Part shown: in pieces, positions 6,748 to 61,600 of the stretch
Layout of the letters: every line of letters starts with the position of its first letter
Position numbering within the stretch: position 1 is the stretch's first letter
Assembly (NCBI GenBank): GCA_958450365.1
Contig: CAUEEP010000577.1
Location: forward strand, 53,521-117,520
DNA: 64,000 nt
Source of the DNA: Mesorhabditis belari
Taxonomy: Eukaryota; Nematoda; Chromadorea; Rhabditida; Rhabditidae
Direction of reading: 5' to 3'
Notes under the pieces: generated by a model
What the model was told of the DNA's origin: nothing
Database searches by the model: none
Seen by the model: the letters and a program-made list of their open reading frames with translations, nothing else
Made by a program: the position numbers and the translations under genes

Positions 6748-9700
6748 TCAACTATCTGAGCATTCGGACGAGGTTGGGCTGCTTGGTGGCGCTAAACCGG
6801 TGTGCACGGTGATCGCCGAGTGACAATTCACAGCAAATGCTGGATAGTAAAGGCCACGGGGGATGTTTCTAAAGGAAAATGAAAATAGTCATTTTTTAGC
6901 AACAATAAAACCGTAATTTGAGCAATTTATGACATTCTACCGTACCTGAACGCGACGGTCTCTTTCTCGAAGGCGCGTTTTCGGTCGTTGATCGTGAACG
7001 TGAGCGTCCCGCGGTCACAATCCAGCCGAACACCTGAAGGTTTGAAATTTAAGTGATCTGGAGGCTCAGGCTCAGGCTCAGGCTCAGGTTCAGGCTTAGG
7101 CTTAGGCTTAGACTTAGGCTTAGACTTAGACTTAGGCTTAGGCTTAGGCTCAGGCTCAGGCTCAAGCTTAGGAATTTCTGTCCAGCCTACCGTGCTTGTA
7201 GATTATTTAAACGTGTCCAAGCTATCGTCCCCAGTTACCGTTTTGGCTACCGTCCTATCGTACTCTAAGCCTAAGCCTAAGCCTAAGTCTAAGCCTAAGC
7301 CTAAGCTTAAGCCTAAGCCTAAGCCTAAGCCTAAGCCTAAGCCTAAGCCTAAGCCTAAGTCTAAGCCTAAGTCTAAGCTTAAGCCTAAGCTTAAGCCTAA
7401 GCCTAAGCCTAAGCCTAAGTCTAAGCCTAAGTCTAAGCCATTTGAGAGTTCAAGCTAGTTAGTGTAGTTCTTACCGATGACTGAGCCTTTCGAGATGCCG
7501 CCTGAGATTCGGTGATGATGGGTTTCGTTGTGGAAATACCGAGATCTTTCTGCATCAACATACATCGACCATCCATGTAAATCCTTTCCTGAAAAGGCGC
7601 AGGATTATTTAGAACCATGAAAGCATAGATATTGCAGAGATTTTACTCACCTAGCATCACATTTCTGTTCACTGAGGGTTGCGCAACTCCAACAACGACA
7701 TCGGCATTCGCGTCATATCTGTCGACGGTTACTTCCCAATAGTGAACTCCCTGAAATTTGGTTTTGAAGGAATGGGGATCCTTGGGATGTTGAGAGATCT
7801 TGAGAGGGTACAGTACTATAATAAGATTCTAAAGGTCTAAAGGTAAGTCAGATCAGTTCCGTGGTGCCTATAAGAACTACTTGGAGTGCAGAGTGCATTC
7901 CAGAAGCCCGGAACTTGCTAACAATTTTAGGTACAGATGCAAGCCTGCCTTCTGGCTGACCCAGGAACTATTTTGCTTTCTGTACCTGAGCTCTATACCT
8001 TTCAGAAGCCAGATTTCAACTGCTGACACAATACAGCTTGACTAGTGGCTAGTTTTTGGATTTTTGTACCGTTTTACCAGGACCTAGCCAGCTCACAGCT
8101 CGCCGAAGCCAGCCCGAATCCTCGAGCAAGACTGATCAGTTCCAGTACTTTGTCTTTTACAGTACGGTAAGCTCAGGATCAAGTCAAACAATTTCTCATA
8201 CTCATTTAGATTTTACAGTAAGACTTGGTCAATAGCTTACCTTCGAGAAAGCGATACTCCCGAGCACTGTGCGGTGTTCGATCGTCGTTCCCGTTAACGT
8301 CATGCACTCATTTGTCAACTGCATATCCCGTTGTGATGGGCTTTTCGTCAATTGAAACCAGGCGACTGAAAAGTTTATTTTGCTAAAGGCCTGAAAAGCC
8401 AAAAAAAAAAAGCGAAAATTTGGTCGCTCCCGGGATCGAACCCAGACCCCAGGCCCCAGGCGTTCGCCCCATAACCGCGCTCGTTACCCACTGCGCCATG
8501 AGGTCAAAGTCGGGTATTTGAACCGAAAATTTCACCAAAATCCCTTGTGACATCCAGATTCCTCAAAAACAAAGCAATTTTGACTTAAATGAAAAGATTT
8601 CAGGTTGAAAACGAGGCAAAGTTGTGATATTTTGAGAAAATAATCGAAAATGACAAGAAATTACATTTTTTTGCCTTTTTTTGCCGTTGATTGCAATTTG
8701 GTATAAAAGATTTTCAAACAAGACAAACCCTGTGCCGTTTGTAGACAAATCGACTCACTGTAGACACTCTCGCCGGCTGAGTTGAAAGCTTTCACCCGCG
8801 CGGCGTACATCGTATTGAAATGGAGTCCATCAATTGTACAAATCGTATCCGGACCAGAGTAGACTTCCTGAAGCATAAAAAATAGTTGTAGCCTTTAGAT
8901 TTTCAAAAGCTGGAACGCAGCAAAGAGTTTGGCAAAGGGATTTCTCCTTTTCTCCTTTTCACTCACTTTGAACACGCCGTCATCTCTGCCGGTGTCGATC
9001 TCGAGTGCATAACCATCAATCGCGCACCCGTCTAGCCTGGGTCGCCAAACTAAAATTCGATTCTGGATATCACGCTTTAATATAAATCTATCGAATTGAC
9101 TCTTACTTAAAATTAGAAAAAATTGAGTTAGAGATTTGAGTTCAAGCAAAAAAATTAAGCAAAGGTTTATTTAAAAGAAAAATTTTGAAAGCTAATGGTT
9201 AAATTGGAGTTCACGAAATCGAATGGGATCATTAAAATCAGAAATTTTCAATTTCTAAACTTTTGCAATAACCCACCAAGCGTGACAGAGTTATTCTCTG
9301 CAGAGCATTCGGCCGCGTCGAATCCCGGTGAAGAGGGGACTAAAATTATCAAAATTTTTCAGGAAAATAAGAAAAAAACATAGTGCCAGTGTCCATGCTT
9401 TTCAAATTGCGAAATTGCTTAATTTTTATACAACACAATACTACAGTAAAGAGGTTTTTCCATCTTTTCAGAACCTTTACTCGAATCGCCAGCGATTCGT
9501 CGACTCTGAGAGCCTAAAGGCGATTTTGAAACTGATTCTAGCTAATCCTGGATGTCACATAGTAAGATAGGATTCTTAGTTTTAAAATACCTTTATGCTG
9601 AGCAAAGTCAAGGGTGCCGATCGCGTAGTGGATGTGCTTTGTGTCCAAGTTGAGCACAAATTCGGGGTCGATCTGAAATTTTTTGGTTATTCTGGAGGTC

Positions 9701-58613: not shown

Positions 58614-61600
58614 ATGTCTGCCTCGAAATTTTCCACTACAGAGTACTATGAAGAGGTCGAGTACTATCGAAAAACGAGTAGTCCCCGAAAAAACCGTTTA
58701 CTTTCTGGAACTGATCGTCGATTTGCCGAACATGACCTCCAGGATACGTCGTACATCGATTATCCAAACAATTGGAGGCCAAATAGCACACGAATAGCTC
58801 CTGATCCCTATTCGAGCTCTTGGACACCTCGTCCTGCCCCGGATTCTCAATTCTTCAACGTTGATCGTCGTTCTGGAACGCAGGAGAGCCGAATCTATGA
58901 TTCAAGACCGATCCGACCAAATTTCGATACAAGCTACGAAACTTACTATCGACAGCCCTATAACCCTGAAGAGCTCACCTATAGGTACAGTAACCGGCCC
59001 GTTTACTGTCCTGGCTATTATAATGAGGATTACGGTAGGACTCCCACAATTCCTGCTTTCTACTCAACTCGTGGCAGAGTCGATTTGAACGAGTCGGGCA
59101 CCGAGAACTCGATCTACAAGAAATACAGCCGTTCTCGCAGCTTACCGCCATCAAATTTTCGTCAGCCGGAATCCTGGAAGGCACACGAGACAATGAATAA
59201 GAATTTTTATCAAAATCATTCACCTAAATTTTTGACTTCTGAAAACCACTCAGCTCCGAGATTCCCGTATTCAAGAATATCAAATTTTTACTATGAATCC
59301 CCGAAATGCTATCCACATTACAGTTCTGGACAGTCACGGGACTTGTCCCTACCGATAACGACTCGCTATTCGTGTTTGAACTGCTATGATGGCTTGCTAG
59401 GAGGCTTTTGTGAAACTTGTGGAAAATTTGGAAGAGAATCGTCTCAATCAGTGCAGTGCCATCCAGATCCATCGAAAATCGAGCCATTTCGTAATTACGA
59501 CAAGAATGAGTACACGGATTCGAGGTAGCTCTTACTTTTTTTTCGCTCAAACCCCGATAACTTTCGATAGTTTCACTAAATCCCTCCCAAAAACATCGTA
59601 AATAGTAGTTCTGGAACGCATGTAAGCTAAATTCCTCACAAGAGCATTGTTTTTTGAGAAGATGGAGAAGTTGGTAGTAGCGTTGCCACTTCAACGACCC
59701 TGGCTTGCCCCCAGGTTCTCATTTCGAAATTTTTCCCTAAATTCAGTAAATCTGGCTATCAGCACGTAGTAAGAGTTTAAAATTTTCCCTTTTTTCGGCA
59801 ATGATTACTCATTTGCACATTTTGCTTGCCCACATTTCCCCAAAAAAAAAAAAAAAGACTTTTTTTTTGTCCTCGACTCAGCCCAATGATTCATATTGCT
59901 GATTTCGTTCGTTTTCTTTTTTTTTTTTTTCTTTTCAAATTCCCTCCTTGTGCCCTCCAATTTACAGTTTCCGGTCAAAAAAAAAGACATTAAGACTTAC
60001 AAAAAGATTACAGAGCTTTTTCTGCAATGACTTCCAGGTCAAAATCCGCTTTCCCTTTTTCTTTTGCCATCCCCCACTTTTTTTGCTTCATTTTCGATTG
60101 TGCGCTCCAGCTTGCGATTTCCATGTTTCAAAATCAATTTTTCGTTGAATTTCAGAAATAGAATGGCCAACTACAGCTACTGCACCATCATCGACAATCC
60201 GGAGTTCAAGGCTGACGTGTGAGTGGCATTTGTTTAGACTTTTGATACGGATATAAGGCCTTGATTAGGGTTTGGGTCTATCCTCGTTCAAAATTTTGAT
60301 TTAAATGCAAAGGCAAGGCAGGGAATTCCAACAAGGCACGGAATTGGGTAACTAAACCGAGGCTAAAATTTTATATTCATCCTTTTGCAAAAATGACATC
60401 TCCATTACGATGCCTGAGCTCCAGAATTGCCTTCAAGATATCGAAAATCTTCTCAACGTTTCAGCTTTGCCGAGAAAATCGATCGAGCTCTGCGCGCCGG
60501 CGAGAAAGAGGGCATTGTCAACACGTTGACCTCGATCTCGAACTCGCAACGACAACAAGTAGATTTTTTTGATTATTTCCCTTTTGTGATATCCAGATTA
60601 TCATAGAATCTGTTATTTTTAGCTTCGCGCTCCCTACAAACTCAAATACGGAAAGGAAATCGATGAAGCGCTTGACAAGAAATTCTCTGGAGATATCGAG
60701 ACGGTGAGGGGTTTTTTTGAAAGTTCTGGATGTCACACTATTTTTGAATTATTGCGAATTATTTATTTAGCCTAAGGTCGTTTATTTATTCTATTTTATT
60801 TATTGTATTGTATTAGGTTGATGCATAAGTCTTTTCGTTCCTTTTCGTCCGCCGTTTCAAGCCAACAAATGCACGAATTAAACTACGGTTGATTTCATTA
60901 GAAAAAGCAATTATTTTTCAGCAAAATAACATTAAAACGGGTTTAAAAATATTTGATGCCTGGATTTTCTTGAGAGTATGAAGTCGGGTATTCAAAAAGG
61001 GCTAACTCGATGATGCGGTTTAGACACCTTAGCTAAAGAAATGCCTGGATTTTCTTGAGAGTATGAAGTCGGGTAGTCAAAAAGGGCTAACTCGATGATG
61101 CGGTTTAGGCTCAGGCTCAGGCTCAGGCTAAGCCTCAGCCTAAGCCTGAGCCTGAGCCTGAGCGGTTTAGACACCTTAGCTAAAGAAAACCTATCTTCGT
61201 GTCAATAGATAAAAGATAGAACACAAAAAGTTAGGTGTATAGCCAAAATTTCAGCGAAATTCATTCAGCCAATTTTTCCGTAGAGTTTTTTATAGATTTT
61301 TGACGAAAAAGGCGTTTTTCACTCTCGAATTTGCTTGAAAGTCAACCGAAATTCATTTAAAAAGATGCAAATTGAACAAAAAAAACACTTTTTTTATAGA
61401 GCAAACTACTATAGATTAATTCGTGAATTTGTTACTTTTTAACAGAAGTACGAAAAAAAAAAAAAAAAAAAAGACTTATGCATCAAACTAATATTTTATT
61501 TATTCTATTGTATTCTAGGCGGTGCTCGCCCTCATGGAAACTCCATTGGAGTACGATGTGAAACAGTTGAAGAAATCGATGAAGGTAAAAAAAAAGAAAA

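Follow-up and report, generated by a model that had tools for sequence, protein, structure and literature searches.

The locus and its host genome

The stretch of DNA considered here (the window) comprises 64,000 nucleotides of contig C427 in the 207.6-Mb genome of the nematode Mesorhabditis belari. Strewn through it, on both strands, is a short gapped word, CTGG[AG]NN[GT]CA, here called the box, which has 131 strict matches as against 5.4 ± 2.5 expected from 10 first-order Markov simulations. Neighboring boxes tend to lie about 142 bp apart even where the DNA around them is otherwise unrelated, and the phasing of A/T dinucleotides around the box points to a predicted position at or near the nucleosome dyad.

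Genes share the window with the boxes. The minus strand carries, between about 20 and 6.9 kb, pieces of a TRIM-type gene, which we take to be a relative of TRIM9/MADD-2 or of MID. Two B-boxes exceed the Pfam cut-off, one of them matching solved Midline-1 chains as well; the FN3 and SPRY pieces both score under it. The gene is host sequence, outside the spacing code described below. The box at position 9063 (as CCAG) stands, judged by eye, at the expected minus-strand 3' splice site ahead of the FN3-like exon. Toward the other end of the window is an open reading frame holding four boxes, whose translation matches an unnamed M. belari protein on contig C553 at 99% identity across 96% of its length. 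With these two sequences inside it, the domain is not gene-free. No known RNA family reached the gathering threshold in the window.

Contigs C427 and C553 represent two haplotypes of one locus, with aligned blocks that are mostly 98-100% identical, and C159 and C569 are likewise haplotype partners. M. belari has 2n=20, its somatic karyotype altered by DNA diminution (PMC11555361); its females arise by gynogenesis (PMC7433073), and heterozygosity is kept genome-wide (PMC10456839). The nematode SL1 exon has 430 exact copies in the genome (both strands summed); copies on contigs C280, C286, and C372 form arrays in which most lie about 869, 1546, and 961 bp apart. Tandem-repeat masking removes 22% of the window, as against 3% and 7% of two stretches without boxes. 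Very dense short-period minisatellites are found, for example, at 973-1413, 14484-14738, 24073-24526, 35460-35874, and 51095-51515, and an inverted duplication of several hundred bases has its arms, 91-99% complementary, at 27229-28025 and 31400-32175.

The box and its domains

The core of the box carries flank preferences of roughly TTT-GG--CAWT before it and CA after it. Extended forms are abundant in the genome while their reversed controls are nearly absent: the 12-mer CTGGATGTCACA occurs 2,623 times (control 2), ATCTGGAACGCACA 505 times, CGATCTGGAACGCACA 137 times, and CGATCTGGAGCGCACA 74 times (control 0 in each case). The window holds 20 of the 2,623 copies of the 12-mer, about 25 times the mean density of the genome. 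A first-pass annotation, made from the letters of the window alone, had placed a motif at 31 positions. A strict box stands on one strand or the other at 28 of these; the remaining three (24016, 28066, and 28827) hold near variants and were left out of the box counts. Since the window served to define the box and also belongs to the test set, nine other 10-kb loci serve as an independent check of spacing and phase. About 3.2 x 10^5 bases were read across the genome, mostly in box-rich places. Among the literature matches listed for the motif letters, no title concerned nematode chromosomes.

Boxes are not spread evenly along chromosomes. Sampling of 21 stretches of C553 (5.96 Mb) found 15 without any box and four with one or two; the stretch at 3.14 Mb had four and that at 3.19 Mb, chosen because it matches the window, had 10. 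The domain therein extends over about 3.14-3.23 Mb of a 5.96-Mb contig, and contigs in this assembly are not end-to-end chromosomes. Box matches span 24 to 648 kb on C159 and 0.6 kb to 1.1 Mb on C688, which may hold more than one domain. The 16-mer CGATCTGGAGCGCACA, by its complete list of matches, is also on C548, C553, C569, C642, C660, C675, C694, C701, C707, C708, and smaller contigs, some of them haplotype partners. The boxes thus form discrete domains, very roughly 0.1-1 Mb in size, on many contigs. Among the literature matches listed, nothing in the titles or the opening lines of abstracts mentions motif domains in Mesorhabditis.

The domains differ in the subtype of box they carry. Boxes on C77 are mostly CTGGANNT, with the NNT form outnumbering NNG by 22 to 3, while elsewhere the forms are mixed, 49:51 (T:G) in the window and 32:44 on C159 (p 5e-4 and 6e-5, respectively, for the difference from C77). 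These are comparisons between contigs rather than between chromosomes.

Spacing between boxes

Tandem duplication will by itself produce regular distances, and so the spacing of boxes was considered in the light of their flanks. Two sites were called related if local alignment of their 70-bp flanks, with the box excised, scored 26 or more (for 60-bp flanks, 1,500 random pairs have their 99th percentile at 25). Single-linkage clustering of flanks chained together 176 of 299 sites, and pairwise and greedy filters were used instead. The wider set comprises 465 sites in 211,192 bp, drawn from the window, the nine 10-kb loci, and 19 merged loci of 1.8-4.6 kb. The density of boxes in this set is biased, because the merged loci were chosen for the 12-mer and the 10-kb loci for their richness in boxes. 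A strict greedy set, in which no two sites have alignable flanks, retains 172 of the 465 sites (79 of 131 in the window). The p-values given below assume that sites are independent, an assumption that arrays and duplications partly violate.

The 142-bp step is firm. In the strict set of the window, 11 neighbors lie 138-146 bp apart, where 0.8 are expected by chance (no more than 6 in any of 2000 random placements); in the strict set of 172 sites there are 16, as against 1.3 (at most 6 in 2,000 placements). When all 131 boxes of the window are counted, related or not, the number is 23 as against 1.8, and the nine other loci also show the step (21 as against 4.4, at most 13). The troughs are less secure than the peak. 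Distances of 60-135 bp are found once in the strict set of the window (6.5 expected) and three times in the strict 172 (11.0 expected). The interval from 185 to 295 bp is depleted in the window, both in the strict set (2 as against 8.0) and among all boxes (6 as against 18.2), and is within chance in the strict 172 (10 as against 13.7). Of the 53 pairs in the strict 172 that are closer than 360 bp, 16 fall at 139-145 bp and 20 are spread across 283-352 bp.

The case for a second class, at about 319 bp, is weaker, though such a class is likely. Distances of 300-340 bp are found 21 times among all boxes of the window (5.6 expected, at most 16) and seven times in its strict set (2.6 expected, at most 9). 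The wider set contains 441 non-duplicate unrelated pairs less than 700 bp apart, a mean of 6.3 per 10 bp. By distance, there are 8 at 60-129, 40 at 140-149, 12 at 150-159, 10 at 180-259, 58 at 300-339, 10 at 350-409, 83 at 440-499, 32 at 500-579, and 96 at 580-639 bp, and the classes are centered at 141.7, 318.6, 465.1, and 610.0 bp. An earlier test, in which unrelated pairs were compared with random placement of all boxes, overstates the troughs; the fair version keeps the 142-bp peak and weakens both the troughs and the 319-bp class.

A weight matrix was used to scan the longer gaps for faded boxes. In 48 adjacent gaps of 295-350 bp they are hardly more frequent than in shuffled sequence, 10% of gaps exceeding the 95th percentile of the null, so that a missing copy is ruled out as the explanation for most gaps of this size. 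By contrast, 10 of 22 gaps of 430-500 bp hide a weak box, and for seven of the ten the best position is 139-150 bp from one end; 5 of 14 gaps of 580-640 bp exceed the null 95th percentile. The distance of 465 bp is therefore often 142 + 323, which leaves two elementary steps, one of about 142 bp and the other of about 319 bp (approximately 2 x 160).

The orientation of the two boxes shifts the first step slightly. It is 142.0 ± 0.35 bp for boxes on the same strand (n=29), 139.8 ± 0.23 bp when a minus-strand box precedes a plus-strand box (n=11), and 143.5 ± 1.2 bp for the reverse (n=6). These means place the axis of symmetry about 1.1 bp past the center of the ten bases, on the central NN.

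The first-pass annotation had proposed that spacing is quantised at about 131, 142, 152, and 162 bp, preferred values one helical turn apart, and at two or three times these values, with gaps representing multiples from which a copy is missing. Its central value holds: the histogram is not flat at 142 bp once alignable flanks have been removed, and tandem duplication is not the source of the peak. The remainder of the series fares less well. Outside the 136-148 bp peak, no significant 10-bp preference is found among 30 pairs at 118-190 bp (Rayleigh p 0.43). Genome-wide, like-strand pairs 111-141 bp apart number 878 as against 0 in the control (tandem arrays included, and with the range ending at 141), and among the first 100 of these, 2 lie at 118-120, 12 at 128-132, 1 at 133-137, and 85 at 138-141 bp, with a separate group visible near 131 bp. 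A 10-bp ladder in the distances is thus weakly supported. The longer classes are not at 284 and 426 bp, as doubling and tripling would have it, and missing copies may account for some gaps of 430-500 bp and for few of those near 319 bp.

The pairs, runs, and arrays of the window are collected in Table 1.

Table 1. Boxes, box-bearing repeats, and genes of the window, in order of position
Feature	Position	Strand	Spacing of boxes and remarks
Box domain	58..63923	both	131 strict boxes, about 2 per kb; count against simulation
259-nt element, five dispersed copies	2606..8662	-	copies at 2606, 2926, 5088, 5408, 8404, all carrying CTGGATGTCACA; 320 bp between copies in two pairs
Box pair, unrelated flanks	6595..6745	-	141 bp
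TRIM-type gene region	6900..20000	-	two B-boxes, FN3 and SPRY pieces; holds 26 of 131 boxes
Box pair CTGGAACGCA / CTGGATATCA, unrelated flanks	8910..9072	+	153 bp
Box pair, unrelated flanks	9548..9701	+	144 bp; within TRIM-type region
Box pair, unrelated flanks	15066..15216	+	141 bp
Four-box run	19808..20438	+	141, 337, 143 bp; other haplotype 141, 327, 143
Four-box run	20781..21214	-	140, 142, 142 bp; other haplotype 141, 142, 142; one flank pair borderline related
Inverted pair (- then +)	21865..22028	mixed	154 bp; other haplotype same
Inverted pair (+ then -)	23411..23573	mixed	153 bp; other haplotype same
Box run	24789..25412		141, 320, 153 bp; other haplotype identical
Box run	28219..28513	mixed	145, 140 bp
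Box run	36106..36734	mixed	148, 328, 143 bp
Tandem array, period 139-140	38627..39139	-	139, 140, 133 bp
Box pair, unrelated flanks	39444..39596	-	143 bp
Box pair, unrelated flanks	40052..40208	+	147 bp
Tandem duplication, period 281	40594..41148	+	with boxes
Tandem array, period 131 (and 254)	45010..45657	+	131, 254, 131 bp
Tandem array, period 140	52568..52934	-	with boxes
Tandem array, period 153	54244..54574	-	with boxes
Open reading frame with four boxes	58575-59528		boxes at 58733, 58873, 59174, 59457; 140, 301, 283 bp

Some arrays depart from the common form. Two of one family, at 29442-29834 (period 140) and 34529-34911 (period 142), have a consensus without an intact box, carrying instead the box-like CTAAG.TG.CACC. 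Locus L043 (C77:43001-53000) has arrays of about 142 bp, at about 2418-3700 and at 8894-9460, in which many units hold two opposite boxes, 38 and about 104 bp apart. Haplotypes also differ: an interval of 307 bp in one member of the pair L069/L074 is 166 + 141 bp in the other, a box being present in one haplotype only, and neighboring boxes at positions 5919 and 6061 of L068, CTGGATATCA, correspond to CTGAATATCA and CTAAATATCA in the other haplotype, L072.

Phasing of A/T dinucleotides around the box

Around the box, dinucleotides composed of A and T (WW) form a wave whose period is about 10.2 bp. It keeps phase with the box and is symmetric about it, with peaks at approximately ±5, ±15, and ±25 bp from its center and so on outward. 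At 242 sites the amplitude is 0.178 upstream and 0.098 downstream, as against means of 0.019 and 0.016 when the sites are shifted; 420 control sites with CTGG give 0.012 and 0.017, within the null. The wave is alike in the window and in the other loci, each taken separately, and it is present also in 169 strictly unrelated sites.

The extent of the wave depends on the sites considered. Over all 237 sites it is coherent from -60 to +45, falls within the null from +60 to +75, and is shifted in phase near -75. With 163 de-duplicated sites it exceeds the shift null from -220 to +210, except from +50 to +95, and with the 70 boxes that have no other box within 250 bp it does so from -60 to +30. In general, the phase is symmetric and strongest within about ±60 bp and either changes or drops to noise near ±70 bp. 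The best fit of a dyad template lies at -11 to -1, with no rise at +70 even where there is a neighbor at +142. Away from boxes but within the domain, WW periodicity is weaker in the window (0.0093 as against 0.0218 near boxes), though not in loci L044 and L045.

A wave that is symmetric about the box and fades near ±70 bp is what one would expect if the box sat at the dyad and not in the linker, and it points to a predicted position at or near the dyad. The contention of the first-pass annotation that one face of the helix is selected, at about the distance of a nucleosome core, thereby gains support from a kind of evidence not available to it.

Conservation of the box and possible constraint on the distance between boxes

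Copies of box-bearing sequences were sought with the box masked, so that copies that have lost the box are included. The resulting 852 homologous pairs (one further pair, at 25% divergence, was excluded) were divided into three bins, in which divergence of the core is 0.011, 0.020, and 0.038, as against 0.058, 0.119, and 0.190 in the flanks. The core is thus conserved in diverged copies. The second N of the box diverges at the rate of the flanks or above it in all three bins, and the first N is near the flank rate in two bins and at just 0.037 in the third. Between haplotypes, substitutions within the box (0/280 and 5/246, as against 63/10,330 and 252/8,836 outside) are too few to tell.

The length of the interval between boxes may be constrained as well. 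In three places where haplotypes were aligned, with tandem arrays masked, there are five indels in the 9,699 bp within intervals of up to 350 bp and 35 in the 12,872 bp outside them (binomial p 4e-5), while the same alignments have 76 substitutions inside and 120 outside (Fisher p 0.001 for the ratio of indels to substitutions). If only short periods are masked, the indels number 15 inside and 39 outside (p 0.009 and 4e-4). These counts are suggestive of constraint on length.

A model of the domains and its rivals

We consider it somewhat probable that the box is the recognition site of a putative sequence-specific protein that acts on positioned nucleosomes and so builds chromosome domains; the nucleosomes, the protein, and the function we infer from sequence. 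According to the model, each box (CTGGA-NN-KCA) would mark, to within about 10 bp, the dyad of a stretch of roughly nucleosome length that is phased in A/T. By standard nucleosome geometry, the fixed halves CTGG and KCA would face outward on either side of the dyad, where the protein would read two short fixed halves flanking a variable center. Neighboring boxed particles would abut at about 142 bp, and the distance of about 319 bp (2 x 160) would represent boxed particles with one particle lacking a box between them. The length between boxes would be constrained and its sequence fairly free, and many boxes would build one domain of about 0.1-1 Mb.

As to what such a domain might do, the likeliest role within this model is that of a meiotic platform akin to a pairing center, with HIM-8/ZIM-type C2H2 zinc-finger proteins as its readers, though we hold this at less than even chances. 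A platform like a centromere comes next, as a tentative choice. The lean toward pairing centers stems from the discreteness of the domains and the differences in box subtype between them, evidence that does not decide the matter. One might go further and imagine a domain in nucleosome register, in which the word at the dyad and steps of 142 or 319 bp are kept by selection while the intervening DNA changes freely, the NNT and NNG subtypes perhaps labeling chromosomes for recognition by their partners; we put this forward as a speculation more apt to fail than to hold.

Several observations weigh against the model. A dyad-to-dyad distance of 142 bp is less than the 147-bp core, so that the DNA would have to unwrap in part or the particle be smaller. 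In the strict set of 172 sites, the 319-bp class does not exceed chance (300-340 bp: 9 as against 4.6, at most 14) and is spread over 283-352 bp. The domain on C553 has at least 2.7 Mb of contig on either side, while the pairing-center motifs of C. elegans are near chromosome ends, and the sampled domains share one family of box, where C. elegans uses several motifs (though the boxes of C77 lean to the NNT form). The 852 homologous pairs are not independent of one another. Finally, rotation of the intervals along the alignments gives an indel ratio as low as that observed in 3.9% of 5,000 trials (p 0.039), and so the selection asserted in the first-pass annotation has moderate support: a conserved core and fewer indels in short intervals, tempered by this control.

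The chief rival places the box in centromeric chromatin, within a CenH3 nucleosome, its tandem and dispersed copies serving as units of a holocentromere, like the 19-bp box of Meloidogyne. The anatomy is similar, in that short divergent tandem arrays with one common short box are associated with CenH3 in that genus (PMC9673304), and the array units described here are nucleosome-length and divergent. A step of 142 bp also suits a particle wrapping less than 147 bp, and M. belari has been discussed among holocentric species (PMC10456839). However, the 21 sampled stretches of a 6-Mb contig yielded one dense domain, about 180 kb at most, which is sparse for a holocentric chromosome, and that domain includes a TRIM-type gene. 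Histone-fold genes are present in the genome, with CenH3 not singled out among them. On balance we regard this account as unlikely, though it stands closest to the one preferred.

Alternatively, a protein might bind the box in linkers and act as a barrier, with nucleosomes filling the space between. A distance of 142 bp from center to center leaves about 132 bp between boxes for the purpose, and because 71 bp amounts to seven turns, the phase of the WW wave is by itself ambiguous between the box and the midpoint. What makes a barrier rather improbable is the strength of the wave, which is greatest at the box, for isolated boxes too, and indistinguishable from the null where the midpoint would be, together with the failure of the dyad template to rise there.

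Perhaps instead the boxes are relics of old satellites with a unit length of about 142 bp, in which the box was kept and the flanks changed past recognition. Live tandem arrays with boxes, of periods 131-153, are indeed numerous, and related pairs peak at 140-149 and 280-289 bp. An ordinary satellite is alignable over the whole unit and runs head to tail, while here 172 of 465 sites have no alignable flanks and the unrelated pairs number 441, some boxes nonetheless lying in true arrays. Unrelated pairs in inverted orientation also keep the distance (11 minus-plus and 6 plus-minus pairs at 136-148 bp), and tandem duplication cannot make inverted pairs. Furthermore, the wider set has its second class at 319 rather than 284 bp, for the most part with no faded box within, and the WW wave persists where flanks are strictly unrelated. 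Decay of satellites is therefore a poor candidate for the origin of the spacing, even if satellites may be a route by which boxes are supplied.

Programmed DNA elimination, with the domains as its signals or targets, we judge to be similarly improbable. DNA eliminated in Mesorhabditis is rich in satellites, and other rhabditids have short motifs that mark their sites of elimination (PMC13370393); the window, as noted above, is itself rich in tandem repeats. However, very few genes are eliminated in Mesorhabditis, and the window holds a TRIM-type gene with boxes across its region. Also, the elimination motifs described in the same paper are tied to sites of telomere addition and do not form regular arrays.

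Clusters of type-I piRNA genes also come to mind, since in nematodes they too are large domains in which a motif is dispersed among unrelated flanks. There the motif is a promoter giving one small RNA per copy, starting at a fixed place downstream with the T of YRNT; but in 163 aligned sites neither a fixed T nor YRNT is found within 54 bp downstream, where nothing stands out beyond the 10-bp A/T wave, and nucleosome spacing is not expected of such genes, so that this explanation was rejected as highly improbable.

As a rule, sequence has little influence on where nucleosomes lie. If the model that we prefer is correct in attributing the distances to nucleosomes, then nature has provided in these domains a densely sampled test of whether a DNA code can be read on the nucleosome. 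They would also help to show how parts of chromosomes are marked in a worm whose meiosis is altered and which undergoes programmed DNA elimination.

Comparison with known systems

We know of no motif-defined chromosome domain, whether a pairing center or a box-bearing centromere repeat, that is ordered nucleosome by nucleosome. The pairing motifs of C. elegans begin with TTGG and end near GCA, resembling CTGG....CA. Its pairing centers (HIM-8, ZIM-1/2/3) are regions at particular chromosome ends, rich in 12-base motifs bound by the C2H2 zinc-finger proteins HIM-8 and ZIM (PMC9071541), and artificial arrays of the motif work there. Homologs of HIM-8/ZIM are found in many Clade V nematodes (PMC8455136). 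The domains described here share with pairing centers the strong enrichment of a short motif in large, discrete regions of the chromosome. They differ in that one family of box serves all sampled domains and that the domains may lie elsewhere than at chromosome ends. Also, nucleosome-length spacing and dyad-centered A/T phasing are not described for pairing centers in the portions of that literature available.

The CenH3-associated repeats of Meloidogyne are like the arrays of M. belari in being short, tandem, and divergent with one short box in common (PMC9673304). In M. belari, however, many boxes stand at equal distances in DNA that is unrelated; the likeness is one of anatomy. We assign the system neither to the pairing centers nor to repeats of the Meloidogyne type.

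The resemblance to positioning of nucleosomes by 10-bp WW phasing extends to both phase and symmetry, which match a dyad. In yeast, preferred nucleosome positions differ by the helical repeat (PMC5807854). What sets the M. belari domains apart from WW positioning in general is a fixed word at the predicted dyad and a distance from word to word that is regular across unrelated DNA. Finally, the NLAR of C. elegans, a 185-bp repeat opposite the pairing center, is another case of a nucleosome-length repeat tied to chromosome position, but it is a conventional tandem repeat with one consensus and no dispersed box (PMC10918474).

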